A stretch of 62,231 nucleotides of DNA from Komagataeibacter melaceti (GTDB lineage Bacteria; Pseudomonadota; Alphaproteobacteria; Acetobacterales; Acetobacteraceae): contig NZ_QUWV01000004.1 in the NCBI RefSeq assembly GCF_003403295.1, forward strand, positions 1 through 62,231. Reading direction: 5' to 3'. The notes under the pieces were generated by a model. That model searched no databases. It saw only the letters and a program-made list of their open reading frames with translations, and had not been told where the DNA came from. The translations under genes and the position numbers were made by a program. Positions 44,791 to 61,458 of the stretch are shown here, piece by piece; position 1 is the stretch's first letter; the number at the start of each line of letters is the position of its first letter.

Positions 44791-45286
44791 GTGAATGATG
44801 GTGGTGGCCGTCACCATGATCATGATTATGGCCGTGGCCATCCGTGCCCGCCCGCCCGGCATAGGCTCCGCTTTCGGGGTCGAAAGGTGCCTGCACGCTG
44901 CGGACATGACCACCAAGGCCACGGATCATGTCGGCAATCACATGGTCGTAGCGCACAAGGATACGCCGTTCCTCAATGGCGGCGGGCAGATGCCGGTTGC
45001 CCAGGTGCCACGCCAGCCGCAGCAGGTGCAGCGCGTCATGCGCCGTGACTTCCATCAGGTCTTCGAGCATGGCCTCGACCCGTATGATCCGCCCATCGTC
45101 CAGACGCAGGCCCTCGCCATCATGCAGCAGGCGGGCATGGTCGAGTTCCAGCAGCACTTTCGTGCCCGAACGCAGGGGCAGCATCATGCGCCGGCGGTGG
45201 CGGCCTTCATAATCAGCGGTGAAGACATCGGCCTCGTCAGCCCCTGCCCAGCTTCCTGCTGGCAGGATTTCGGTTACGCGGGTCAT
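44783..45286 (-). CDS. ureE: Urease nickel metallochaperone UreE with His-rich tail
   Basis: A 167-residue chaperone carrying nickel to the UreDFG complex. The N-terminal peptide-binding half is followed by a metal-binding half (AWHLGNRHLPAA, RYDHVIADMIRGLG) and a C-terminal tail with many histidines ([15 protein letters not shown]) that binds extra nickel. Its start overlaps the ureC stop (TGATG). Confidence 0.95.
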   Translation of the reverse strand: MTRVTEILPAGSWAGADEADVFTADYEGRHRRRMMLPLRSGTKVLLELDHARLLHDGEGLRLDDGRIIRVEAMLEDLMEVTAHDALHLLRLAWHLGNRHLPAAIEERRILVRYDHVIADMIRGLGGHVRSVQAPFDPESGAYAGRAGTDGHGHNHDHGDGHHHHSHD

Positions 45287-46992
45287 CAGAACAGGAAATA
45301 CCTCTGGGCCATGGGCAGGATATCGGCAGGCTCACATGTCAGCAGCACGCCATCGGCACGCACTTCATACGTTTCGGGATCGACCTCGATATGCGGCATG
45401 GCGTCGTTATGGATCATACTGCGCTTGCCAATGCCGCCGCGCGTGTCGGACACGGCGGACAGACCCTTGCGCAGGCCGAGCTTGCGGCCAATATCATCCT
45501 CAAGGGCTGCCTTTGATACGAATGTCAGGCTGGTATGCGCCAGCGCGCCACCATAGCCGCCAAACATCATGCGCCCATGCACCGGCTGCGGCGTGGGGAT
45601 GGAGGCATTCGGGTCGCCCATCATGGCATAGGCGATCGCGCCACCCTTTATGACCAGATCTGGCTTTACGCCAAAGAAGGCCGGGTCCCACAACACAAGA
45701 TCGGCCAGCTTGCCCACGGCGATGGACCCGACCTCATGCGACAGGCCATGGGCGATGGCCGGGTTGATGGTATATTTCGCGATGTAGCGCCTGACGCGGT
45801 TGTTGTCCGCCGCGCCATCGCCCGGCAATGCGCCGCGCTGCTGCTTCATCTTGTGGGCTGTCTGCCATGTACGCAGCGGCACTTCCCCCACCCGGCCCAT
45901 GGCCTGGCTGTCGGATGACATCATGGACAGCACGCCCATGTCATGGAAAATGTCCTCGGCCGCGATGGTCTCGCGCCGGATGCGACTTTCGGCAAAGGCG
46001 ATGTCTTCGGGCACCTTCGGGTCAAGGTGATGGCAGACCATGAGCATGTCCAGATGCTCATCCAGCGTATTGCGCGTATAGGGCCGCGTGGGATTGGTGG
46101 AAGATGGCAGCACATTGGGCAGCCCCGCCACGCGGATGATGTCGGGCGCGTGTCCGCCCCCTGCCCCCTCGGTATGGAAGGCGTGGATGGTGCGGCCCTG
46201 AAAGGCGGCGATCGTATCCTCCACAAAGCCGCTTTCGTTCAGCGTGTCGGTATGGATCATGACCTGCACGTCCATCCGGTCGGCAACGCCCAGGCAACAG
46301 TCAATGGCAGCAGGGGTTGAGCCCCAGTCCTCATGCAGTTTCAGGCAGCAGGCCCCGGCGCGGACCATTTCCTCCAGCCCCTCCGGGCGGGAGGCATTGC
46401 CCTTGCCCGCAAAAGCCAGATTGACCGGAAATGCATCCGCCGCCTGCAGCATGCGCGCCAGATGCCACGGCCCCGGTGTGCAGGTGGTGGCCGCCGTGCC
46501 CGTGGCAGGCCCCGTGCCGCCACCCAGCATGGTCGTGATGCCTGACGCCAGTGCCTCCTCAATCTGCTGGGGGCAGATGAAATGGATGTGGCTGTCTATG
46601 CCGCCCGCGGTCAGTATCTTGCCCTCACCAGCGATGATTTCCGTGCCGGGACCGATGATGATGTCCACGCAGGGCTGGATATCGGGGTTGCCTGCCTTGC
46701 CAATGGCCACGATGCGCCCGTCACGCAGCGCTACATCCGCCTTGACAATGCCCCAGTGGTCGATGATCAGCGCGTTGGTGATGACGGTATCGGCCGCGCC
46801 CTCCGCCCGTGTGGCCTGTGACTGGCCCATGCCATCACGGATTGTCTTGCCACCACCAAAACGCACTTCCTCACCATAGATGGTGAAATCCTTTTCTACC
46901 TCCACCAACAGGTTCGTATCGGCCAGCCTGACACGGTCGCCCGTGGTGGGGCCGAACTGGCCCGCGTAATCATGCCGTGCAAGACGGGTCAT
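45286..46992 (-). CDS. ureC: Urease alpha (catalytic) subunit UreC
   Basis: Nickel amidohydrolase splitting urea to ammonia and CO2. At 568 residues it has the full family length. [14 protein letters not shown] holds two nickel-ligand histidines; [12 protein letters not shown] carries the Lys that becomes carbamylated; [14 protein letters not shown] carries the mobile-flap Cys/His; and [18 protein letters not shown] follows. No active-site residue appears to be missing. It overlaps ureB by 4 bp and ureE by one base. Confidence 0.98.
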
Positions 46993-49093: not shown

Positions 49094-50320
49094 TCAGTCT
49101 GTTCCAGAAAAAATACGCCGGACAGGCTGCATGCCTCCTATCCAGTAAGACAGTTCGTCAGGCCCCGTGATATCCCATAAATTCATATCGGCCTTCATGC
49201 CGTTACGGAGCATTCCGACATCCTTCTCCATTCCCAGAGCCTGTGCCGCAACACTGGTAACGGCCCTGAAGGTTTCTTCCGGTGTCAGGCGGAACAGGGT
49301 ACAGGCCATGTTCATGACGCCTGTCAGACCAAGAACAGGCGACGTTCCGGGGTTACAGTCCGTCGCCAACCCGATTTTGACGCCATGTTTACGAAACAGA
49401 TCAACAGGTGGCTGCTGTGTTTCCCGGATGAAATAGAAAGCCCCCGGCAGCAGCATTGCAACCGTTCCCTGACGTGCCATGTCCATGACGGCAGCTTCAT
49501 CAGCATATTCAAGGTGATCGGCGGATAGTGCATTATACCGGGCGGCCAGTGCGGTTCCGCCACCAAGGGTAAGCTGTTCGGAGTGAATGCGCACGGGCAA
49601 TCCCAGCTCCCGCGCTTTTGCAAACAGCCGATTGGTCTGTTGCGGAGTAAAGGCAATGCTTTCACAAAAAGCATCGACACTATCAACCAGCTTTTCAGCA
49701 TGAAGGCGTGGAAGAAGAGTATCGATCAGGAAAGTAATATAATCTTCTGGCCGCCCGGCATATTCCGGTGGCACGGCATGGGCGCCCAGGAATGTTGTAT
49801 GTACGCGTATGGATAGAATTCTGCCCAACTGACGGGCAACCCGCAACTGTTTCAGTTCATCTTCCAGCGTCAGGCCGTAACCGGATTTGATTTCTATGGA
49901 AGTTGTGCCGGCCTGAATCATTTTCCTGACCCTGTGGGCGGAAATTTCCAGTAGCGCGTTTTCACTTGCCTCACGGGTGGCACGGACCGTCGACAGTATC
50001 CCCCCGCCCTTTCGCGCAATTTCCGCGTAGGATACGCCATGAAGGCGTTCGGCAAATTCATGGCTGCGATCGCCAGCAAACACAACATGCGTATGCGCAT
50101 CCACCAGCCCCGGCGTCAGCCATCCACCGTGACCATGCTCGATCCGGTTGGCCAGTGCCTCCGGAGTATCAGGCAGGTCGGCCTGACGCCCCACCCAGCA
50201 GATCGTGCCGTTCTGGATACCGATTGCGCCGTTACGGATACATCCATATCCATCCTGCGCTGACATGATCCGGTCATCGCTGGTAGCAAGATGGACATCG
50301 AGCCAGAGACTATCCCACAT
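49094..50320 (-). CDS. hutI: Imidazolonepropionase HutI
   Basis: Metal-dependent hydrolase of 408 residues opening 4-imidazolone-5-propionate to N-formimino-glutamate, the third step of histidine breakdown. ATG 50320 ([12 protein letters not shown]) replaces a 50-codon longer frame. [15 protein letters not shown] holds the metal-binding His pair; [20 protein letters not shown] and [11 protein letters not shown] are typical of HutI. It is divergent from hutF; a HutC-type box lies 37 bp upstream of the ATG. Confidence 0.95.
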
Positions 50321-50356
50321 GTTTCTTTCCCGTATTGTTTTAATACCCCTGATATA

Positions 50357-50366
50357 TGTATATACA
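50357..50366. promoter_or_regulatory. HutC operator candidate in the hutI/hutF divergent region
   Basis: TGTATATACA, the core of a 12-bp palindrome (ATGTATATACAT, 50356-50367). It fits the TGTA-NN-TACA form reported for HutC operators in Pseudomonas. It is placed to control both hutI and hutF. Confidence 0.6.
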
Positions 50367-50451
50367 TCATAGTCAATCCCATTATGATGGTCGTGCGGCG
50401 CGGGCAGGCACTTTCCGCCATCCCGCCGATGGCGCAGTTTGGAATCCGGTG

Positions 50452-51822
50452 ATGACAGAATTGTTTGCAAAACAGGCGCTTCTCCCGCAGGGGTGGTGCC
50501 ACAATGTAAGAATTATTTTGGGGGAAGATGGTCGGTTTGCTTCCGTCTCGCCTGCAACCCGTTCACACAGAAACGAAAATTGTCACGACATCATCGTTCC
50601 TGCGCAGATCAGTCTTCATTCGCACGCATTCCAGAGGGCCATGGCCGGACTGACGGAAGAACGAAAAAATCCTGATGACACGTTCTGGACATGGCGTACG
50701 CTCATGTATCAGCTCGCCCACCACATCACACCCGAACAGTTGCAGGATGTTGCGTCTTTCCTGTATATGCAAATGCTGCAGTCCGGTTACACGCAGGTGG
50801 CGGAATTCCATTACCTGCATAATGAAACAGATGGGCGCCCTTATGCTGACCCAGCCGAAATGTCCGGTCGCCTCGCCGCCTCTGCGGTTGATGCGGGCAT
50901 CGGCATTACGCTTCTTCCCACATTATACGCACAGGCAGGTTTCAACGGCCTGCCGCTGCGCGATGCCCAGAAGCGTTTCGCCACAACCCCGGACAGGATT
51001 GCGCGCATTGCAGATGATGTCCGCACGAAATGGGCTGGATCGGATCTGGTAAAAGTGGGCGTCGGCCTGCACTCCCTACGTGCGGTTGATATAGCGGACG
51101 CCACAGAATTACTGGACATATCCGACAGGCTGGCCCCCATACACATTCACATTGCCGAGCAGCAGCGGGAAGTCGATGAATGCCTGGACGTTACCGGCAT
51201 GCGTCCTGTCGATTACTTATCCGACCGGATCGGGATAGATGCGCGCTGGTGCCTTGTCCATGCAACCCATCTGTCCGAACGGGAGGTCACGACCATAGCG
51301 CGTTCAGGTGCGGTCGCAGGCCTGTGCCCCATTACCGAGGCTAATCTGGGTGACGGTATCTTCCCCTTTGAGGACTATATTGACCAGGATGGTCGCTTTG
51401 GCGTCGGGACTGACAGCAATGTCCTTATCAGCCCGTGGGAGGAGTTGCGGGTACTGGAATATGGCCTGCGCCTGACACGGCAGAAACGTTGCGTGGGCCG
51501 TCCCACCAGCACAAAAGGGCCAATTGGTACGTGGCTTTATGAACAAAGCCTGCGCGGTGGCGCACAGGCCTGTGGCCTGTCCAGTTGGGGCATTACCCCG
51601 GGCGCCCGTGCGGATCTGTGTGTACTGGACAGTAATGCGTTATCCCTGCCCCACCTGCAGGGCGATAACGTGATCAATTCCGCCATTTTTGCCGCATCGC
51701 GCCCCCCCGTCAGGCATGTCATGTGTGCAGGGAAATGGCAGATCGTGGATGGGCATCATGCCGATGAAGCGCGGATCACGACCGCGTTTCATAAGGCAGT
51801 CCGCACCCTTGTGAATTCCTGA
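50452..51822 (+). CDS. hutF: Formimidoylglutamate deiminase HutF
   Basis: Amidohydrolase-superfamily enzyme of 456 residues converting N-formimino-L-glutamate to N-formyl-L-glutamate and ammonia, which defines the five-step hut pathway. ATG 50452 ([15 protein letters not shown]) is chosen. [18 protein letters not shown] with the metal-binding His pair, [22 protein letters not shown] and [17 protein letters not shown] are family marks. It is followed by hutG after 24 bp. Confidence 0.95.
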
Positions 51823-51846: not shown

Positions 51847-52647
51847 ATGACTGATACTTTCTCCTTCGTCCCCGGTGATCTTCCCGTATTGATCACCCTT
51901 CCCCATGCTGGTGAACAATTGGCACCGGGCATGGCGGAACGTATGACGCCACGCGGCCGGCAGTTGCCGGACACGGACTGGTATATGGAACGGCTTTACG
52001 GCTTTGCCCGAGATAAGAATATTGGCGTCATACGGGCCAACCATTCCCGTTATGTGGTTGACCTCAACCGTGGCAGTGATGACGCTGCTCTCTACGCGGG
52101 ACGGCCCAGCACGGGCCTTGTGCCCCTGCTGGGTTTTGATGGACAGCCAATCTATCATGAAGGCAGCGAGCCCGATGACACGGAAATGGCGCGTCGGACA
52201 GAAACCTACTGGAAACCCTATCATGACGCAGTAGCGCAGGAACTCGCGCGCCTTCGGGAAAAATGGGGCTGGGCTATATTATGGGATGGACATTCCATCT
52301 GCTCCGAGGTGCCACGCCTGTTTGAGGGTCGACTGCCTGACCTTAATTTTGGCACGAACAGCGGCGTTGCCTGTGACCCCTCCCTGCTTCAGGCGGTTGT
52401 GGAGCGGGCGGAAACATTGACCGCCTATTCCCATGTCGTCGATGGCCGTTTCAAAGGGGGCTTCACCACGCGGCATTATGGCCGCCCGGCGGAAAACATT
52501 CATGCCATTCAGCTAGAAATTGCCCAGTCAACCTATCTTGCGTCGGAGCAGGCACCGTGGCCCGCTGATCCGGATGCCGCAGCACGACTGTCTGGTGCGC
52601 TTGAGCATCTCATGGACGCCGCCCTTGCCTGGCGTCCGGCACGATAG
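51847..52647 (+). CDS. hutG: N-formylglutamate deformylase HutG
   Basis: Zinc hydrolase of 266 residues releasing formate from N-formyl-L-glutamate to give glutamate, the last step after HutF. LPVLITLPHAGEQL, RANHSRYVVDLNRG and LWDGHSICSEVPRLFEGRLPDLN are typical of the N-formylglutamate amidohydrolase family. It converges with hutD, leaving 7 bp between stops. Confidence 0.95.
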   Translation: MTDTFSFVPGDLPVLITLPHAGEQLAPGMAERMTPRGRQLPDTDWYMERLYGFARDKNIGVIRANHSRYVVDLNRGSDDAALYAGRPSTGLVPLLGFDGQPIYHEGSEPDDTEMARRTETYWKPYHDAVAQELARLREKWGWAILWDGHSICSEVPRLFEGRLPDLNFGTNSGVACDPSLLQAVVERAETLTAYSHVVDGRFKGGFTTRHYGRPAENIHAIQLEIAQSTYLASEQAPWPADPDAAARLSGALEHLMDAALAWRPAR

Positions 52648-52654
52648 GCAGGTT

Positions 52655-53233
52655 TTATTTAGGGATGATGCGATATAGCAGGGCATCATCCCCGCCATCC
52701 GGTATCAGGGCAAGGCGGGTCCGGGAATTGCAAACCATGAATTCACCCGGCAGGCATATACCCTTTACCCCGGATGGGCACTGAAATTCCCATCTGCCAC
52801 GCGCAACGATAAATGCCAGGATGTCACACGGTGGATGTGTCCGATCCACAGGCTCCAGACTGTATGCACTGCCGGACACATGCATCAGGTTCACCACCTG
52901 TACGGGGCCGTCCGCAAGGGTGGCGGATACCTGCGATTCTCCTGAAAACGTAAAAACTTCTCCCGGCCTGCCCAGATGTACCTTACTGCCATCCGAGGCG
53001 CGCAGGACCAGCCCATTCCCCTGCACAAGGGCTATATGCCTTGTCATGCCGGAAAAAAGCGAAAAATCCCCCTCACGATCAATTTCAGCAATACTCAGCC
53101 GCCAGACGGCGTTGCGGAGCAGAACACGGGTGATCCCACGCCCATTTTTCCATGGCTGGGGAATAAGCCCGGCAATGGATGCCACCCTGTTCTCCGCAGG
53201 GAAGAGATTGCCATTTTCTTCATCTGGTTTCAT
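52655..53233 (-). CDS. hutD: HutD/Ves-family cupin protein
   Basis: A 192-residue cupin-like protein with PQPWKNGRGITRVLLR at the N-terminus, WRLSIAEIDREGDFSLFSGMTRHIALVQGNGL in the first barrel and CDILAFIVARG later, as in HutD. HutD is thought to set the upper limit of hut expression in Pseudomonas by binding a pathway metabolite; it is not an enzyme of the pathway. It is divergent from hutC with a HutC-type box between them. Confidence 0.88.
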   Translation of the reverse strand: MKPDEENGNLFPAENRVASIAGLIPQPWKNGRGITRVLLRNAVWRLSIAEIDREGDFSLFSGMTRHIALVQGNGLVLRASDGSKVHLGRPGEVFTFSGESQVSATLADGPVQVVNLMHVSGSAYSLEPVDRTHPPCDILAFIVARGRWEFQCPSGVKGICLPGEFMVCNSRTRLALIPDGGDDALLYRIIPK

Positions 53234-53279: not shown

Positions 53280-53377
53280 ATAATCTACAAGCATGATTGA
53301 TGACCAGCCGACCGGAACCATCCGGGATCATATCGACACTCAAGAGAAGCAAAGGTAGGGGAGACGTGCAGCAGACC

Positions 53378-54091
53378 ATGGACAAGGCGAAAACGGTCGC
53401 GCGTTATGAACAGGTGAAAGCCTTCATAATCGAGCGGATTGACTGTGGAGAATGGGAGGTTGGCCACCGGCTCCCCTCCGAACACGAACTGGTTGAAAAA
53501 CTGGGCGTGTCACGCATGACCATCCATCGGGCGCTGCGTGAACTTACCGCAGACGGGATCGTCCGCCGTGCCCAAGGTGTGGGAACTTTCGTCGCCCAAC
53601 CCGCCAAGCATGTTGAACTGCTCGAAATCCGCGATATTGTTGATGATATCGTGGCAAGCGGCCATCAGCACAGGGCGGAAGTCATTGCGGCTGAAACCAT
53701 CCGTGCCGATAGCGACCTTGCAATTGCATTCGAGCAGAGGGCAAGCACGCGACTGTTCCGTACCCTGATCGTACATTACGAGGATGACCTGCCCCTGCAA
53801 CTGGAGGAACGTTTTGTTTCACCCCAGTTTGCGCCTGATTATCTGGAACAGGATTTTACCACAACGAATCCGCACAGGCATCTGTATGGAATAGCTGGGC
53901 CTGAGGAAATCGAGCATGTGGTCTTTGCCGTAACGCCGCCGCCTGACATCTGCTCCCTGCTTCAGCTCAAGAAACCGGAGGCCTGCCTGCAACTGGTCCG
54001 GCGGACATGGGTGGAAGGTCGCGTAGTCATGAAAGGTATTTTTACCTATTCCGGCAATCGGTACAGTTTTGGCGGCCGTTACCGGGCCTGA
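53378..54091 (+). CDS. hutC: Histidine utilisation repressor HutC (GntR family)
   Basis: GntR/HutC regulator of about 237 residues. The winged helix-turn-helix (VGHRLPSEHELVEKLGVSRMTIHRALRELTADGIVRRAQGVGTFV) is followed by a UTRA effector domain (VASGHQHRAEVIAAE … RLFRTLIVHYEDDLPLQLEERFV). In Pseudomonas, urocanate is the inducer. I choose ATG 53378 (MDKAKTVARYEQVKAF); TTG 53297 or ATG 53300 would add about 27 residues. It is read into the lyase gene 34 bp downstream. Confidence 0.9.
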   Translation: MDKAKTVARYEQVKAFIIERIDCGEWEVGHRLPSEHELVEKLGVSRMTIHRALRELTADGIVRRAQGVGTFVAQPAKHVELLEIRDIVDDIVASGHQHRAEVIAAETIRADSDLAIAFEQRASTRLFRTLIVHYEDDLPLQLEERFVSPQFAPDYLEQDFTTTNPHRHLYGIAGPEEIEHVVFAVTPPPDICSLLQLKKPEACLQLVRRTWVEGRVVMKGIFTYSGNRYSFGGRYRA

Positions 54092-54125: not shown

Positions 54126-55619
54126 ATGCCTGAAATCGTGCTGGACCGGCCACTGACGCCGGGACAGGTTTGTGATGTTGCGCGCCGGAAATACCCTCTG
54201 CGCCTTTCTGAGGCCGCGCGGGCAAGGCTAAAGAAAGCCAACCAACGCCTGCGCATACTGGTGAATGGGGAGGCGGCGGCATATGGCCTGAATACGGGTG
54301 TTGGCGGCCTGTCCGATACCCGCATTACGCCCGAGAAACAGTCCGTCCTATCCCGCAAGATCCTGTTCAGCCACGCAACGGGTGTGGGCCAGCCATTAAG
54401 CAGCGAGCAGACACGCGCCATCATGGCCTGTGCAGTGAATCAGTACTGTCTTGGGTATTCCGGCCTGAGGGAAGAAATCGTTGACCGTCTGGTAGCTCTC
54501 CTGAAACATGACTGTCTGCCGATCGTGCCGCGTGACGGGTCAGTCGGGTACCTAACCCATATGGCGCATATTGCCCTTGCGCTGACAGGATATGGCGAAC
54601 TCCAGTGCGGGAATAATATCCGCAGGCCTGCGGCACTGGTGCTACAGGATCTGGGGTTTGCTCCCCTTATCCTTGAAGCCAAGGAAGGGTTGTGCCTAGT
54701 CAACGGCCTGTCCTGTGTCACTGGCATTGCCTGCCTTGTCATGGAAGATGCTTGGGTCTGCCTTGACTGGGCCAACCGGATCGCCACTGCGTGTTTTGAT
54801 ATTCTGGGTGGTCAGCAGACGGCTTTTGATCCCCGATCCGCAGCCCTTCGGATGATGCCCGGTCATCGGGACATTTCCCACTATATGAACGAAAACCTTG
54901 CCGGCTCCATCCACATCGCCAGGGCTGCGGGACAGCGCACACAGGATGCTTTGAGCCTGCGCGCCATTCCCCATATCCATGGTTCCATCCACGACGCCCT
55001 GCGCAATATAATGGAAACCGTCACGCAGGAACTGGAAAGCCTGTCGGATAATCCCGCGATCATGGAAGATGAAAGCGGCATAGGCGCATTTTCACAGGCA
55101 CATGCCGTGGGGGCGAGCATGGCCCGCGTCATGGATGAGGCCGCGATTGCATTGGCCAGTCTGGGCGCTATTTCCGAACGTCGTCTTGATCGTATGGTCA
55201 ATCCGCTGACCAGTCCGTTCGCGCCGTTCCTGTCCAGTGATTCCGGCACCGGCAGCGGCTTTATGATCGCCCAGTACACGGCATCATCCCTGACCGGCGC
55301 AAACCGCCGCCTTGGCGCGCCAGCCTGTCTGGATGGCGGGATTACGTCAGGATTGCAGGAAGATATTCTTGTGCACGCAACGCCTGCCGCCCTTAAGGCT
55401 GCTGACGTTGTACGGAACACGCGCACCATTCTGGGTATCGAATTGCTGGCGCTGTGTCAGGCTATGGATCTGGCCGGGCTGGTCGATGAGGTCTCACCTT
55501 CGACACGCGCCCTCTATACTGCCGTCAGGGAACAGGTGCCGTTTTATGAGGAAGACCATCCCCTCTCCGACGATATGATGCATATCTCGGGCTGGATGAA
55601 AACACAGCCCCCCGGTTAA
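54126..55619 (+). CDS. HutH-like ammonia-lyase family protein lacking the MIO triad
   Basis: A 497-residue member of the HAL/PAL superfamily in the place of hutH. Family features are present: AAAYGLNTGVGG with the conserved Tyr, LEAKEGLCLVNGLS, SDNPAI, ISERRLDRMVNP, GSGFMIAQY and GLQEDIL. Normal histidase has GSVGASGDLAPLAHM, whose Ala-Ser-Gly cyclises to the electrophilic MIO cofactor. Here residues 138-149 read GSVGYLTHMAHI: the triad and neighbours are missing, with the frame clean on both sides. A classical histidase reaction is therefore doubtful. Ergothionase, a family member that expels trimethylamine, is the precedent I recall; hercynine or ergothioneine are candidate substrates. Its end overlaps the MFS gene tail by 4 bp. 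Confidence 0.85.
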   Translation: MPEIVLDRPLTPGQVCDVARRKYPLRLSEAARARLKKANQRLRILVNGEAAAYGLNTGVGGLSDTRITPEKQSVLSRKILFSHATGVGQPLSSEQTRAIMACAVNQYCLGYSGLREEIVDRLVALLKHDCLPIVPRDGSVGYLTHMAHIALALTGYGELQCGNNIRRPAALVLQDLGFAPLILEAKEGLCLVNGLSCVTGIACLVMEDAWVCLDWANRIATACFDILGGQQTAFDPRSAALRMMPGHRDISHYMNENLAGSIHIARAAGQRTQDALSLRAIPHIHGSIHDALRNIMETVTQELESLSDNPAIMEDESGIGAFSQAHAVGASMARVMDEAAIALASLGAISERRLDRMVNPLTSPFAPFLSSDSGTGSGFMIAQYTASSLTGANRRLGAPACLDGGITSGLQEDILVHATPAALKAADVVRNTRTILGIELLALCQAMDLAGLVDEVSPSTRALYTAVREQVPFYEEDHPLSDDMMHISGWMKTQPPG

Positions 55620-56839
55620 ACGGGGGTTGCCTGCACGATCTTGCTCCGCACCATATCTTCGTGCTGGTGCTGGCGAATTTCACGGAACAGGATGGGTAGC
55701 CCGATCGGCATGCTGATAACGCAGGCAATAAAACCGGCAACGCCCAAAGTGGTAAAGGATGCATGATCAACGATCAGCCCGCCAATGGGCGCACCCAGTG
55801 CGTAGCCCATACGGTCCATGCCGCCACAGAAGGTGCCTACCCGCCCGGTGTGATCCAGCGTTGCGGCACTGCCCAGCAGCCAGGCGTAGGATAGCATGGA
55901 ACAGTTCCAGTAAATGACCACGCCGGTTGTATAGACCCATGCATTCCCGGCCGAACAGGCCAGAAGCCCCCCTACGCCTACCCCAAGGAGGGTCAGCGTA
56001 AGAAAGACATCCCTACGTAATCTGTCCGCAAGACCACCGAATAGAAAGCTGACCCCAACACTGGAGAGGATGCAAAGGGTGGAGAGAAGGACAATATAAT
56101 TAGCCGACAGGTTCAGGGAGCGTCCTACCGTTTCAGCAAAGGACCAGATAATGCTGGAACCAAGGGATGACCCGACCCATATGCACAGTAACGCAATCGC
56201 CCCGGGCGTGAACGATACCGTGCCGCCACGCCTGCTGGGCGGCGGCGCCATGGGGACATGCCGCAGCGTAAGCATGCAGGGGGCAAGGCAGATGACAATC
56301 CCGGCCAGCCCCACGAAGACCCCAAGCGCACCAAATACCTGCGTTGCATAGGGAATGGCATCAATGACGGCAACCAGAACAAGTTGCCCGCCCCCGTTGG
56401 CAATGGCGTATATCCGGTCAGGATTGTCGCTGGCTGCGGCCGCACAGACAAAGGACCGGCCCAGAAGGGCCTCCGCCAGACCAAAAACAATGGCGCAAGC
56501 CCAGAGCCAGATGAACGATGTCGCACCACTTGCGATCAGCAGTGAGGACATGACGGCAAGTGCGGCCCCCAGGAAGGCAGTGACGATAACGGGCAGGCGC
56601 AGATGCACTCTGGACAGGACGATCATGAAAACCGCAAAGGACATGATCTCGAAAAAGCCAAACAGGCTTGCCCGGCTGGCAGACTGATGCAGACCGGTCA
56701 TCAGCGCATCGATCTGGAATGGCATGACGGATGAGCCGAGATATGCAAATCCCGAACAGACACTCAGCCCAAGCGAAAGCAAAAGAAGTTTCCGATCAGA
56801 CGAACGGCGGCCGGTGCGTGTCCCTGTCATAATCATCAA
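55616..56839 (-). CDS. MFS transporter of the hut cluster
   Basis: A 407-residue major facilitator protein with about 12 membrane helices, and the loop GGLADRLRRDV between helices resembling the MFS motif A. It is read after hutU (60-bp gap holding a strong hairpin). It probably moves the substrate of the hut-linked lyase or an intermediate across the inner membrane; no similarity to the usual HutT permease is apparent. Substrate unknown. Confidence 0.82.
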   Translation of the reverse strand: MMIMTGTRTGRRSSDRKLLLLSLGLSVCSGFAYLGSSVMPFQIDALMTGLHQSASRASLFGFFEIMSFAVFMIVLSRVHLRLPVIVTAFLGAALAVMSSLLIASGATSFIWLWACAIVFGLAEALLGRSFVCAAAASDNPDRIYAIANGGGQLVLVAVIDAIPYATQVFGALGVFVGLAGIVICLAPCMLTLRHVPMAPPPSRRGGTVSFTPGAIALLCIWVGSSLGSSIIWSFAETVGRSLNLSANYIVLLSTLCILSSVGVSFLFGGLADRLRRDVFLTLTLLGVGVGGLLACSAGNAWVYTTGVVIYWNCSMLSYAWLLGSAATLDHTGRVGTFCGGMDRMGYALGAPIGGLIVDHASFTTLGVAGFIACVISMPIGLPILFREIRQHQHEDMVRSKIVQATPV

Positions 56840-56898: not shown

Positions 56899-58596
56899 CT
56901 ACTTGACCGTCGTAATCATGGGCAGATTAAGCCCTTTTTCATGAGCACAGTCGACGGCAATCTCATACCCAGCATCGGCATGGCGCATGACGCCAGTTGC
57001 CGGGTCATTCCACAGAACCCGGCCCAGCCGCTCGGCCGCATCCGCTGTTCCATCGGCAACAATCACCATGCCGGAATGCTGGGAGAAGCCCATACCCACG
57101 CCCCCGCCATGATGCAATGATACCCATGTCGCGCCTGATGCGGTGTTGAGCAGCGCGTTCAGCAGCGGCCAGTCGGACACGGCGTCCGATCCGTCACGCA
57201 TTGCCTCGGTTTCACGATTGGGGCTGGCCACCGACCCACTATCGAGATGGTCGCGACCAATAACGATAGGCGCCTTCAGTTCGCCTTTTGCCATCATTTC
57301 ATTGAAGGCAAGGCCCAGGCGGTGGCGATCCCCCAGACCTACCCAGCAGATACGCGACGGCAGGCCCTGAAACTGGATCTTTTCCCGCGCCATATCCAGC
57401 CAGTTGTGAAGGTGCCTGTCATCGGGCAATAGTTCCTTGACCTTCGCATCCGTCTTGTAAATGTCTTCCGGATCACCAGACAGCGCGGCCCAGCGGAACG
57501 GCCCGACACCACGGCAGAACAGCGGCCGGATATAGGCAGGGACAAAGCCGGGGAAGGCAAAGGCATCTTCCAGCCCTTCTTCCAGTGCCATCTGCCGGAT
57601 GTTGTTCCCGTAATCGAAGGTGGGAATACCCATACGGTGGAACGCCACCATCGCCGCGACCTGCGCCTTCATGGATTCCTTGGCCGCCTTTTCAACGGAT
57701 GCCGGATCGGTAACGCGCAGTTTTTCAGCCTTTTCCAGCGACCAGCCTGCAGGCAGATACCCATTCAGCGGGTCATGCGCCGATGTCTGGTCGGTAACTG
57801 CATCGGGGCGGATGCCGCGACGGACCAGTTCAGGAAACACTTCAGCGGCGTTACCCAGCAGGCCTACGGATACGGCCTCACCTTTAGCGCAGGCATCATG
57901 GATGATTTCCAGCGCCTCATCCAGACTGTCCACCTTACGGTCCAGATAGCCGGTTTCCAGACGCTTCTGTATGCGTGAAGGCTCACATTCCACGGCCAGC
58001 ATGGAGGCCCCGGCCATGACAGCGGCCAGAGGCTGTGCGCCACTCATGCCGCCCAGCCCACCGGTCAGTATCCACCTGCCCTTCAGGTCGCCGCCGTAAT
58101 ACTGGCGCCCCATTTCGACAAATGTTTCGTAGGTCCCCTGTACAATGCCCTGACTGCCGATATAGATCCACGAGCCAGCCGTCATCTGGCCGTACATCAT
58201 AAGTCCGGCACGATCGAGTTCGTTGAATTTTTCCCAGTTGGCCCAATGCGGGACAAGGTTTGAATTGGCGATCAGCACACGTGGCGCATTGGCATGCGTG
58301 CGGAATACCCCCACCGGCTTGCCTGACTGTACTATCAGGGTTTCCTCATTCCCCAGATCCTTAAGACATTCGACAATACGGTCATAGCAGGCCCAGTTGC
58401 GTGCTGCCCGTCCAATACCTCCATAGACCACCAGTTCAGACGGTTTTTCCGCGACTTCGGGATCGAGGTTATTCATCAGCATGCGCATGGCTGCTTCTGT
58501 CTGCCATGACCTGGCGGTAATTTTAGCACCACGGGCGGCGCGGATGACGCGATCATTTGCCAGACGAGAATTGGAAGTAAAGATTGACTGGTTCAT
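56899..58596 (-). CDS. hutU: Urocanate hydratase HutU
   Basis: A 565-residue NAD-dependent urocanase giving imidazolone propionate. It is classical throughout: [58 protein letters not shown]-like [17 protein letters not shown] with the active-site Cys, and [24 protein letters not shown] 58596 has GGGAG nine bases upstream. This typical urocanase shows that true urocanate is the intermediate of the pathway. It follows the TonB receptor gene by 33 bp and is probably co-transcribed with it. Confidence 0.97.
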
Positions 58597-58629: not shown

Positions 58630-61011
58630 TTAAAACCCTGCCGCGATTGTCATGGCGGTAGTAAAGCGGGGCGCAATGTAATATTCCGGCGCACTACCTG
58701 CGATTGCGGTCCCATGTACCCCCACTGCATTGTTCGCATTCAGTGCAGGGGAAGCGATGCCTGACAATACTTTCTCATCAGTCAGGTTGATGAAGGCGAC
58801 ACGGATTTCAGGGTGTTTGACAAAGCCCACGCTGGGAAGACGATAGCCCAGCGAAAGATTGAAGGTTTTATATGCGGGCATTTTCTCATCATCCATAAAG
58901 GTGGAGTACTGAGAGCCGGTGTATTTGAATGAGAAACTTCCGAAGATGTTCTTGTAGTCATAGACAAGACCTACCGCCCCCTGGAAAGAGGGACTGCGGA
59001 CAGCCGTTTTTCCAGCAGTTCGAAGGTAGTCATTCCCTACCTGAATATTGTTATCAATCGTGGCATGCAGGTATTCGACGGATACATATGGCGAGAAACC
59101 ATGGAATGGCATCAGGCCAGCTTCAAAATCCACCCCTCGGGATGTCTGCCCACCACCATTTATTGTCGAATAGACAGCAACGTTATTGACGTAACGGAGG
59201 CTAGAAACCTGTCGGTTTGTGAAGTTGTAGTTAAACAGGGCAAGGCTGGCATGAACATATTTGTCCTGATACCGGTAACCAAGCTCTTCAGAGATTGAGT
59301 ATTCCGGCTTGATGGCGGAATTGCCCTGTGTAGCAACGGCGCCGCCGGAATATGAATTATAGAGCGTATCATCAATGGGCATCAGGGTATTGGTCGTGCC
59401 ATTAACAAATATCTGATGATGGTTGTTGATTTTGTAAGTAATGGACACGCGCGGCAATGGCTCAAAGTTATTTGCCGTAACGTGATACTGTGGGCCAGGC
59501 AGGCTATTGGTACCATCCCGGCTCATCATCAATGTTTTCAGGCCACCAATAATTTTGAGACGGTTATGAAGCAGGGAAATTTCATCCTGCAGGTAAAGGG
59601 CATTGGTCTGTGAAATCGTCTGCTCTTTTTCCGCGTAATAGGGCTGCCCATTGGCCATGGTAACATCATGCGTGCTCCATGCGGAGCCTGCATCCCCCCC
59701 TGCCCCAACGGATGAAAATGGCATGGAAAGACTATCGACGCTGTACTGGTACCAATACCCGAACGTTACTTTCTGAACACCAAACTTTCTGGTCAGGGAA
59801 GCATTGACCCCGCCTACGGACTGCAACCCGACATAATCGCTACGTACGCTGCCGCCCGAAGCCGCGTAATCGGGAATGTTCAGGGAAACCGGTTGGGTTC
59901 CGTAATAATTCCCATCCGTTGATAACGAGGAAGATGCAGGCGAGTTCTGCATGGCATAAAGGAAATAAGGGGTTACATTCAGCTTTATTTTTTCAGGCAA
60001 TGTAAACTCAGATGGCATGCTGAGCATGATCTGCTCCCATTTCCACCGGTTCTGGGTCCAGTAATCGGAACTACCCGGACTGAATGTTCCCGACCATGCA
60101 TAACTTCGCCCGGATGCCTGCCAGTCCGCCATTGTTGGGTTGGGGTTATACATATAGTCCATATCAATGTAGGACCCCATCAGGCGGATCGTATCGCCGT
60201 TATTGAATTCCTTCTTGAAGCCGAAATCAACATGGCGGCGCGTCTGTCGGCCTGGCCCCAGGGAGTTTTTTGCCGTGCCGTTGGAAAAAGAAACATAAGC
60301 AGACAGCCCGGTATGGCCGATTTCACCAGTATCGAACCGGCCATAAAACCGTTCCAGATTCAGGGTGCCGTAGCTGTAGTCGATCAGGCCACCCATCTTT
60401 TTGCTCGGGTCCCGCATCGTTGTGGTAACCTGACCACCCGATGCATTGACCACTGGCGCTGCAATTGTGGATGAGCCCTGCGTCAGGCTGACGGAGTCAA
60501 TATCCTCCCCGTCGGCCCAGAACGAGGGATATCCGTTATAGGTCTCGATATCATTGACTGGCATCCCTTCCCATACCTGACCAACTTCGTTGCCACCCAA
60601 CCCACGCACACTCAACTGGGTATTGGCAGCGAAACCATATGGATCGCTCTGGGAAAGGTTAGCGCCGGGAGAAAGGGAAACCGCCTGATAGGCTGTCGTC
60701 GTGGAGGCCTGTTTGTTAATATATTCAGACGTAACGGTGCTGCGCATGTCGCCGCCCGTCTGAAGGGCCATCAGGCCACCACCCGCAATGCGTCGGACCC
60801 TGCCGTAAGCCCCGTTCTCGCCCTTGGCATGAACGTGTATCACCTCCGGCTTGGATGACGGCGTGCCACGTGTTGCAGCGGCTTTTCCATCATGCGCCGC
60901 CGTATTGACATGTGCATGAGTAGGTGATGCGGCGCTGGCCAGCGAGGTCGAGGCAAGAAAAGTAGCGGTGGAGAAGGCTAGACAGGCATGAGAACGTTTG
61001 ATGGTCAGCAT
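58630..61011 (-). CDS. TonB-dependent receptor of the hut cluster
   Basis: A 793-residue outer-membrane receptor with signal peptide (LAFSTATFLASTSLASA), a His-rich N-terminal stretch (HAHVNTAAHDGK), a plug domain (about residues 85-200; LSVRGLGGNEVGQVWEGMPVND) and a beta-barrel ending MTIAAGF with terminal Phe. It lies 33 bp upstream of hutU on the same strand. Its base composition appears lower in GC than the ure region. Its position suggests high-affinity uptake of the pathway substrate, which would be unusual for plain histidine. Confidence 0.9.
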   Translation of the reverse strand: MLTIKRSHACLAFSTATFLASTSLASAASPTHAHVNTAAHDGKAAATRGTPSSKPEVIHVHAKGENGAYGRVRRIAGGGLMALQTGGDMRSTVTSEYINKQASTTTAYQAVSLSPGANLSQSDPYGFAANTQLSVRGLGGNEVGQVWEGMPVNDIETYNGYPSFWADGEDIDSVSLTQGSSTIAAPVVNASGGQVTTTMRDPSKKMGGLIDYSYGTLNLERFYGRFDTGEIGHTGLSAYVSFSNGTAKNSLGPGRQTRRHVDFGFKKEFNNGDTIRLMGSYIDMDYMYNPNPTMADWQASGRSYAWSGTFSPGSSDYWTQNRWKWEQIMLSMPSEFTLPEKIKLNVTPYFLYAMQNSPASSSLSTDGNYYGTQPVSLNIPDYAASGGSVRSDYVGLQSVGGVNASLTRKFGVQKVTFGYWYQYSVDSLSMPFSSVGAGGDAGSAWSTHDVTMANGQPYYAEKEQTISQTNALYLQDEISLLHNRLKIIGGLKTLMMSRDGTNSLPGPQYHVTANNFEPLPRVSITYKINNHHQIFVNGTTNTLMPIDDTLYNSYSGGAVATQGNSAIKPEYSISEELGYRYQDKYVHASLALFNYNFTNRQVSSLRYVNNVAVYSTINGGGQTSRGVDFEAGLMPFHGFSPYVSVEYLHATIDNNIQVGNDYLRTAGKTAVRSPSFQGAVGLVYDYKNIFGSFSFKYTGSQYSTFMDDEKMPAYKTFNLSLGYRLPSVGFVKHPEIRVAFINLTDEKVLSGIASPALNANNAVGVHGTAIAGSAPEYYIAPRFTTAMTIAAGF

Positions 61012-61458
61012 AGCATCTTCTCAAAAATCTGTTCATATCGATTTCACAATGACAGATCAGGTTGCATATGCAACCTATTTTTTTTGCTTACATGTGAGAA
61101 AATATGCAGATTTTCACAAATTATATATAATTTATCTTTTTATATCAGTTTATTATGTTAATTTATATGTACTGACATTTAGGTAAGAAAACGCGGAATC
61201 GGTAGGAATGATGTTATCTGGATAAGAACCCTACAAAACTCACTGCCGCAATATGACCAGCGATATGTTAAGGCGCTATATAAATATATTAAATTCCATT
61301 TAATATCATAGTATTACGCCAAATTTCTTGCGCGGTCGTTCCTGCACTTTGCGAACATCACTAACAAATAAGACGGATGGAGCTGAATTTTGCCAAGTTG
61401 TATATACATTATGGTATTGCAGCAAAACCCATGATGCACTGCGATTAAATAGCCCTTA
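61012..61458. other. AT-rich upstream region of the TonB receptor gene
   Basis: About 450 bp with no gene and a markedly low GC content, especially 61050-61170. It contains a HutC-type box at 61399-61408. The right end abuts the probable left end of the IS5-family element, so the promoter region may have been cut by that insertion. Confidence 0.55.
61399..61408. promoter_or_regulatory. Third HutC-type box, upstream of the TonB receptor
   Basis: TGTATATACA, identical to the hutI/hutF box, about 390 bp upstream of the TonB receptor start. It extends HutC control to the tonB receptor-hutU transcript if the promoter lies here. Confidence 0.45.

Follow-up and report, generated by a model that had tools for sequence, protein, structure and literature searches.

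A histidase homologue without the MIO triad in a hut cluster of Komagataeibacter melaceti, predicted to be a hercynine trimethylamine-lyase

Introduction

The hut cluster of Komagataeibacter melaceti raises the question of what substrate feeds a histidine-degradation pathway in which the histidase homologue lacks the MIO triad. The window analysed in this work is the whole stretch of 62,231 nucleotides (positions 1 to 62,231 of contig NZ_QUWV01000004.1, assembly GCF_003403295.1). Histidase needs the MIO electrophile; the free amino group of its substrate must be activated and kept from deprotonation. Ergothionase lacks MIO (PMC13405746), and trimethylammonium thus has a precedent as leaving group.

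Results

The lyase gene and the loss of the MIO triad

The lyase gene (54126..55619, forward strand) encodes a protein of 497 residues that matches PF00221 with 441 bits (gathering cut-off 27.3), which places it in the aromatic amino acid lyase superfamily. Its score with TIGR01225, the equivalog model of hutH, is 410 bits, below the cut-off of 539.15. That model does not test for MIO, because a MIO-less member from a genome of another class (L191:8653-10161) passes it at 544.9 bits.

The protein exhibits GSVGY where histidases have GSVGASGD. Residues 138-149, GSVGYLTHMAHI, are encoded in a clean frame at 54537..54572 on the forward strand, and they align as GSVG-Y---LTHMAHI with GSVGASGDLAPLAHM of the Pseudomonas putida histidase. 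Tyr142 replaces ASGD, so that 12 residues stand against 15. The net loss is three residues and not about six as the sequence-only reading had stated; its claim that Ala-Ser-Gly is absent in frame was confirmed by the open reading frame, the clean frame, and the alignment. No MIO is expected in this lyase, as the triad that forms it is absent. GSVGYLTHMAHI is identical in Komagataeibacter intermedius TF2 (92% protein identity), Gluconobacter roseus (75%), and Gluconobacter albidus (74%). Sequencing error, frameshift, and chance were ruled out, given that the motif is conserved in these three species and in a wide clade. The AlphaFold model built from four close sequences acquired a mean pLDDT of 42.6 and was too poor for use.

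The hut cluster of the window

The lyase gene is surrounded by hut genes. The gene of imidazolonepropionase, hutI (49094..50470, reverse strand, open reading frame as listed), matches TIGR01224 with 443.9 bits (cut-off 298.15), and its true start is probably near 50320, judging by Gluconobacter relatives. It is divergent from hutF, encoding formimidoylglutamate deiminase (50356..51822, forward, as listed; NF006684, 608.7 bits, cut-off 525), which probably starts near 50452 since the match begins at residue 33, and from hutG, encoding N-formylglutamate deformylase (51847..52647, forward; TIGR02017, 322.1 bits, cut-off 278.75). These are followed by hutD (52655..53233, reverse; PF05962, 100.9 bits) and by the repressor gene hutC (53297..54091, forward, as listed; TIGR02018, 264.5 bits from residue 37, cut-off 220), which lies 34 bases upstream of the lyase gene on the same strand. 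The genes of an MFS transporter (55616..56839; PF07690, 51.7 bits), of urocanase, hutU (56899..58596; TIGR01228, 967 bits, cut-off 375), and of a TonB-dependent outer-membrane receptor (58630..61011; PF00593 and PF07715) are on the reverse strand, opposite to the lyase. The TonB receptor is presumed to take up the substrate.

The hutU, hutI, hutF, and hutG genes had been read as classical, and these and hutC do match their families and pass the NCBIfam cut-offs. The urocanase scores 697 bits with the thiourocanate hydratase model NF058530 (cut-off 930) and 718 bits with the S-methylthiourocanate hydratase model NF058531 (cut-off 880); the thiourocanate hydratase that would mark an ergothionase cluster is thus not the hydratase encoded beside this lyase.

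Palindromes were searched with a motif that we take to be the HutC operator. One site, ATGTATATACAT, is located at 50356..50367 between the probable starts of hutI and hutF, and two sites are located upstream of the TonB receptor gene at 61062..61073 and, with one mismatch, at 61398..61409 (all forward). Four matches, one of them inside hutF, were found against 0.53 expected, a number reached by one of 100 shuffles, and the palindromes lend weak support. The whole gene set occurs together in nine of the 13 Acetobacteraceae loci examined (window included), and relatives of the MFS transporter and of the TonB receptor are each found near the lyase in 11 of these 13. By eye, a gene resembling the urease alpha subunit was also seen at 45286-46992, a few kb from the hut cluster.

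The second lyase of the genome

Two members of the PF00221 family were found in the genome, one in the window and one on another contig (C42), and both are without Ala-Ser-Gly; the search for a second, MIO-containing hutH that had been suggested therefore gave none. The second member belongs to a set (L050:6435-13404) that consists of a MIO-less lyase, ErtD (755 bits, cut-off 600), ErtE (564, cut-off 520), thiohydantoin desulfurase (600, cut-off 440), and thiourocanate hydratase (1010, cut-off 930). A TonB receptor and an MFS transporter adjoin this set as well. By these models the set would be an ergothioneine degradation route, with a lyase step that is deduced from the company of the gene, as no model names it. 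The genome exhibits no match to EgtD of ergothioneine synthesis.

Distribution of the MIO-less family

Relatives of the window lyase were found in Acetobacteraceae, rhizobia, Burkholderia, and genomes of other classes, some of which may be Pseudomonas-like to judge by their gene layout. A relative at E <= 1e-100 is present in 14 of the 395 genomes of the order sample, the own genome among them. For the class and phylum samples, a family profile of 12 sequences (A2) was used, and matches of at least 531 bits were identified in nine of 385 and 23 of 398 genomes, respectively (own included in both). All 29 fetched relatives at or above 531 bits exhibit GS[VA]GY[LI], and the fetched relatives at or below 382 bits exhibit ASGD (25 of 26) or ACGD (one of 26). 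These motif counts cover the fetched loci; among lower-scoring matches without a fetched locus, the one at 407.5 bits was read, and it has GSVGY too. The window-type lyases share 33-38% identity with the ASG-type relatives compared, and 28-29% with one distant row.

The family is also present on plasmids, where 855 records matched. Among the 40 matches listed, the identity is 46-52%, the genera are Burkholderia, Rhizobium, Neorhizobium, Sinorhizobium, and Aureimonas, and 30 bear the name "histidine ammonia-lyase". The six plasmid members first read all have GS[VA]GYLTH. On p42e of Rhizobium etli CFN42, the MIO-less gene is located about 7.7 kb from a canonical hutH with ASGD, and a MIO-less lyase adjoining a canonical hutH was also seen in genomes of another class. 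The plasmid stretch of Rhizobium daejeonense (L119) carries the lyase with genes resembling a fatty-acid desaturase, molybdopterin cofactor-binding and 2Fe-2S proteins, and cytochrome c, and no hut genes were found in that stretch; its lyase possibly acts on another substrate.

Phylogeny and active-site residues

The tree of the superfamily consists of 71 rows, with P. putida and 20 randomly drawn rows standing for the ASG type, and the root was placed by choice on the ergothionase-like rows. The alignment and tree that had been proposed as a check set the GSxGY members apart: the main group forms one clade of 36 rows (100/100). A smaller GSVGY group of three rows is its sister (joint branch 99/90). 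Both groups are separate from the ASG histidases (21 rows, 100/100) and from the ergothionase-like rows that include the Treponema denticola ergothionase (11 rows, 99/96). In a second tree, where three divergent MIO-type rows were added and two long rows omitted, the MIO state needs two changes; the decisive branch acquired an SH-aLRT value of only 89 and long rows are still present, so one and two losses of MIO are both compatible with the data.

A second GSVGY clade has the motif GSVGYL[IV]ATAH and includes L111:3183-4808 (G102), L112:3312-4886 (G123), and L073:1459-3000 (G405). Going by first residues only, the G102 and G123 genes lie near CoA-transferase-like and 3-hydroxyacyl-CoA dehydrogenase-like genes; the substrate of this clade is perhaps another amino-acid betaine. 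A further variant, GSVGYLGPEGHLA, was seen at L219:7454-9022 (G829) behind a polar-amino-acid-type ABC transporter.

The residue comparison used 122 aligned rows, near copies among them, of which 49 are main-group, 14 ergothionase-like, and 56 ASG-type rows. Y53, H83, N195, Q277, R283, M382, and E414 (P. putida numbering) are kept in all 49 main-group members. Y280 is replaced by leucine in all 49, and leucine is also present in 11 of the 14 ergothionase-like rows. Tyrosine occupies the position of the MIO alanine in every main-group member. The position of V386 is tyrosine in 49 of 49 main-group rows, lysine in 12 of 14 ergothionase-like rows, and valine in 53 of 56 ASG-type rows. The position of Phe329 is alanine or proline in the family motif alignments, and GGNF of histidase becomes [QEN]A[HN][AP]. 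The new invariant tyrosines are Tyr142 and Tyr384 in window numbering. Taking Y53, H83, N195, Y280, R283, F329, and E414 to be the histidase active site, the window lyase keeps five of the seven, with Y280 replaced by leucine and F329 by alanine or proline, so that the full histidase set is not present. The features expected of an ergothionase are present in part: the family is without the MIO triad, and it exhibits neither the lysine at the V386 position nor a grouping with T. denticola. The family thus appears to have a histidase-like imidazole site without the lysine that is the presumed sulphur partner in ergothionase.

Gene neighbours and transporters

Neighbours were mapped by tblastn with 26 reference proteins in 39 loci, namely 33 of the 43 lyase genomes (window included) and six plasmid records. 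Directly upstream of the lyase (same strand, less than 400 bases), the gene is a glycine-betaine-type ATPase in 10 loci, hutC in nine, a polar-amino-acid-type ATPase in eight, MFS in two, hutF in one, and none of the references in nine. The controls are 20 loci around lower-scoring matches of the class and phylum searches, of which 19 were motif-checked (18 ASGD and one ACGD; the exception is L216), and two of the stretches (L201 and L212) are shortened by contig ends. This mapping, also suggested by the sequence-only reading, gave an amine ABC-transporter ATPase gene abutting the lyase in 18 of 39 loci and in none of the 20 controls (Fisher 1.7e-4 for any ABC type, 0.012 for the betaine type alone; the loci are partly close relatives, so these values overstate independence). 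With the two MFS genes, a transporter gene stands directly before the lyase in 20 of 39 loci. Within 10 kb, the controls exhibit no glycine-betaine-type binding protein or permease, hutU in 18, and some ABC-reference match in four, mostly weak ATPase matches.

In 30 of 39 loci, hutC or the gene of a hut enzyme is found no more than 10 kb from the lyase; hutU is found in 21. The other nine loci have neither, and the eight whole genomes among them have urocanase elsewhere. Seven of the 10 betaine-type loci have a canonical hutH no further than 10 kb away, and about 11 of all 39 loci have one in the lyase cluster, as assigned by similarity and not each by motif; the extra hutH of L053 and L054 belongs to the second GSVGY clade and was not counted as canonical.

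Two layouts illustrate the transporters. On pSymB of Sinorhizobium meliloti Ak57, the operon consists of an OpuAC binding protein, a permease, an ATPase whose gene overlaps the lyase gene, and the MIO-less lyase, with hutC and hutF upstream. In R. etli, the adjacent binding protein belongs to family 3, and it resembles a binder of an N-alpha-substituted amino acid because its nearest relatives in the PDB are octopine- and nopaline-binding proteins. Two further plasmid records have the polar-amino-acid-type layout.

Co-occurrence with urocanase and canonical histidase

Urocanase was found in all 43 lyase-bearing genomes checked, with a best match of about 945 bits or more in each. In the phylum sample, a TIGR01228 match is present in all 22 lyase genomes and in 131 of the 375 without the lyase (Fisher p about 3e-10, uncorrected for kinship); this count omits the own genome (G000), and some of the 131 matches may be thiourocanate hydratases. 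The phylum searches for lyase and urocanase used separately drawn samples of equal size, and all 23 lyase genomes are in both. In the genus sample of 19 genomes, urocanase occurs in exactly the 10 that have a canonical (eight) or a MIO-less (two) lyase.

The lyase occurs in 14 Acetobacteraceae genomes (own and 13 others, one of which, G016, is in 940 contigs). Five of them have a match of at least 600 bits, all with ASG (G156, G169, G205, G211, and G405). The other nine have no match in this ASG-type range, and ASG is absent from all of their members that were fetched. G169 has two hut sets; an ASG histidase belongs to one, the MIO-less lyase to the other. In that second set (L221), the matches of hutI, hutF, and hutG are each split in two beside an intact lyase, and these three genes may be broken. 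Thiourocanate hydratase is over its cut-off in five of the 14 genomes; nine are without it, one of these having a split copy at 891 bits.

Discussion

The proposed reaction

We consider it probable, at roughly 0.6, that the window gene encodes a MIO-independent trimethylamine-lyase of the histidase fold that converts hercynine into urocanate. It is likely that urocanate is made from an N-alpha-substituted histidine, and we infer that this is hercynine. The sequence-only reading had put urocanate formation from N-trimethylated histidine first among its alternatives, and this appears to be the best explanation of the residues, the clade, the neighbours, and the genome content.

The lyase would eliminate trimethylamine from hercynine (N-alpha-trimethyl-L-histidine, histidine betaine) without a cofactor, and the trans-urocanate would be converted to glutamate and formate via HutU, HutI, HutF, and HutG. 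In window numbering, Arg279 would bind the carboxylate, His83, Met380, and Glu412 would bind the unmodified imidazole, and Tyr53 would abstract the beta-proton. MIO would be unnecessary because a quaternary ammonium group has no proton to lose and departs as neutral trimethylamine. The loss of MIO and the changes of Tyr280 to Leu276 and of Phe329 to alanine or proline would free space for the trimethylammonium group, whose pocket is perhaps lined by Tyr142 and Tyr384.

Three features together suggest hercynine, namely an imidazole site like that of histidase, a urocanase of the classical type, and uptake systems of amine or betaine type; in this genome, the sulphur-free betaine would also be the logical substrate since another MIO-less lyase is available for ergothioneine and the hut cluster is classical. 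Judged from sequence comparison, the points for hercynine are the clade-wide replacement of ASGD by tyrosine with active-site residues kept, the MIO loss and leucine at Y280 in common with ergothionase, the lack of ASG in both family members found in the genome, the co-occurrence with urocanase, the betaine-type and polar-amino-acid-type ATPase neighbours, and the separate ergothioneine set. The points against it are that the betaine-type transporter could serve histidine, as most such loci also have a canonical hutH nearby, that the polar-amino-acid-type transporters would also suit other N-alpha-substituted amino acids, that nine of the 39 loci are without nearby hut genes, and that four of the 20 controls do have an ABC-reference match.

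Alternative explanations

The same MIO-free elimination on another N-alpha-substituted histidine, such as a histidine opine (e.g. histopine), a histidine-containing metallophore, or dimethylhistidine, is unlikely but is the first alternative to be weighed. The octopine- and nopaline-binding relatives of the R. etli protein and the eight polar-amino-acid-type loci speak for it, and the TonB receptor in 11 of 13 Acetobacteraceae loci would suit a larger or metal-bound ligand. Such a receptor need not mean a large ligand, because the ergothioneine set also adjoins one. The glycine-betaine-type transporters in 10 loci and the OpuAC domain in S. meliloti argue against it, and by inferred chemistry secondary and tertiary amines, being deprotonable, would gain less from a MIO-free elimination.

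That the protein is still a histidase, either MIO-free or with an unrecognised electrophile, is improbable. In genomes where the search gave no histidase of the ASG type, the lyase does fill the place of hutH in full hut clusters, and it retains most of the residues that bind histidine. A study of S. meliloti by Boncompagni from 2000 reportedly found growth on histidine reduced by about 30% in a hutH2 mutant, and uptake of histidine, proline, and betaines by the adjoining transporter; should hutH2 belong to the MIO-less family, some link to histidine is possible. However, a duplicate histidase poorly explains the loci with a canonical hutH in the same cluster or the second hut set of G169, and one hutH copy of Pseudomonas fluorescens SBW25 is reportedly non-functional. 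In addition, the S153A variant of a Rubrobacter PAL, which is free of MIO, lost practically all activity (PMC3903478).

A catalytically dead relative that acts as hut regulator or sensor, in organisms that use exogenous urocanate, is more doubtful still: the lyase no longer has the cofactor found in its nearest characterised relatives and stands directly behind hutC in nine loci, but the equivalents of Tyr53, Arg283, and Glu414 are invariant in 49 of 49 members, and a place directly after a transporter gene in 20 loci is as expected of an enzyme. An ergothionase (ergothioneine trimethylamine-lyase), the other substrate reading offered earlier, shares the MIO loss and leucine with the T. denticola enzyme and is very improbable, because the window urocanase is classical and below both hydratase cut-offs, the C42 set has its own lyase, the ergothionase lysine is missing in all 49 members, the clade is separate, and nine of 14 Acetobacteraceae lyase genomes have no intact thiourocanate hydratase over the cut-off.

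Comparison with known systems and significance

The predicted hercynine lyase resembles P. putida HAL (HutH, 1GKM/1B8F) in the PF00221 fold, in Y53, H83, N195, R283, M382, and E414, and in its place in the hut cluster, and differs from it in the absent triad, in Y280 and GGNF, and in the two invariant tyrosines. With the T. denticola ergothionase (6S7J) it shares the lack of MIO, the leucine at Y280, Y53, H83, R283, E414, and the presumed loss of trimethylamine from a betaine; that enzyme belongs to another clade and has lysine for the family tyrosine, glycine for Met382, and serine for Asn195. The partners differ as well, since the ergothioneine set of this genome has thiourocanate hydratase and Ert enzymes whereas the window lyase has classical hut enzymes.

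In S. meliloti, hutXWV-hutH2 is reportedly an operon for a transporter of histidine, proline, and betaines together with a putative histidase. P. fluorescens SBW25 reportedly has two hutH genes, one of which was called non-functional. Both cases would fit the MIO-less family. A pair of neighbouring hutH genes has been published for Pseudomonas sp. J380 (PMC8069873). Such second hutH genes are named (putative) histidases, and neither their lack of MIO nor a betaine reading was found in the literature searched; likewise, neither a hercynine lyase nor a hutH without MIO was reported in any of the matches listed in this limited search.

We lean slightly towards the wider reading that this widespread "hutH" family is a class of MIO-independent hercynine lyases. 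It would form a histidine-betaine branch into the hut pathway in alpha-, beta-, and, going by gene layout, gammaproteobacteria. This branch would have uptake systems of its own, would accompany or replace histidase, and would release trimethylamine as an unrecognised product. If true, this would explain the hut loci that have two hutH genes and a glycine-betaine-type transporter, and a considerable number of genes now annotated as "histidine ammonia-lyase" would be misnamed. Organisms apparently able to degrade histidine may not be, as for the genome of the window, in which the search gave no histidase of the ASG type. Beside ergothionase, the family would add another clade without MIO, useful for studying elimination without an electrophile in the histidase fold. 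The family would provide a catabolic route for hercynine and thus a second, overlooked entry to the histidine-degradation pathway.
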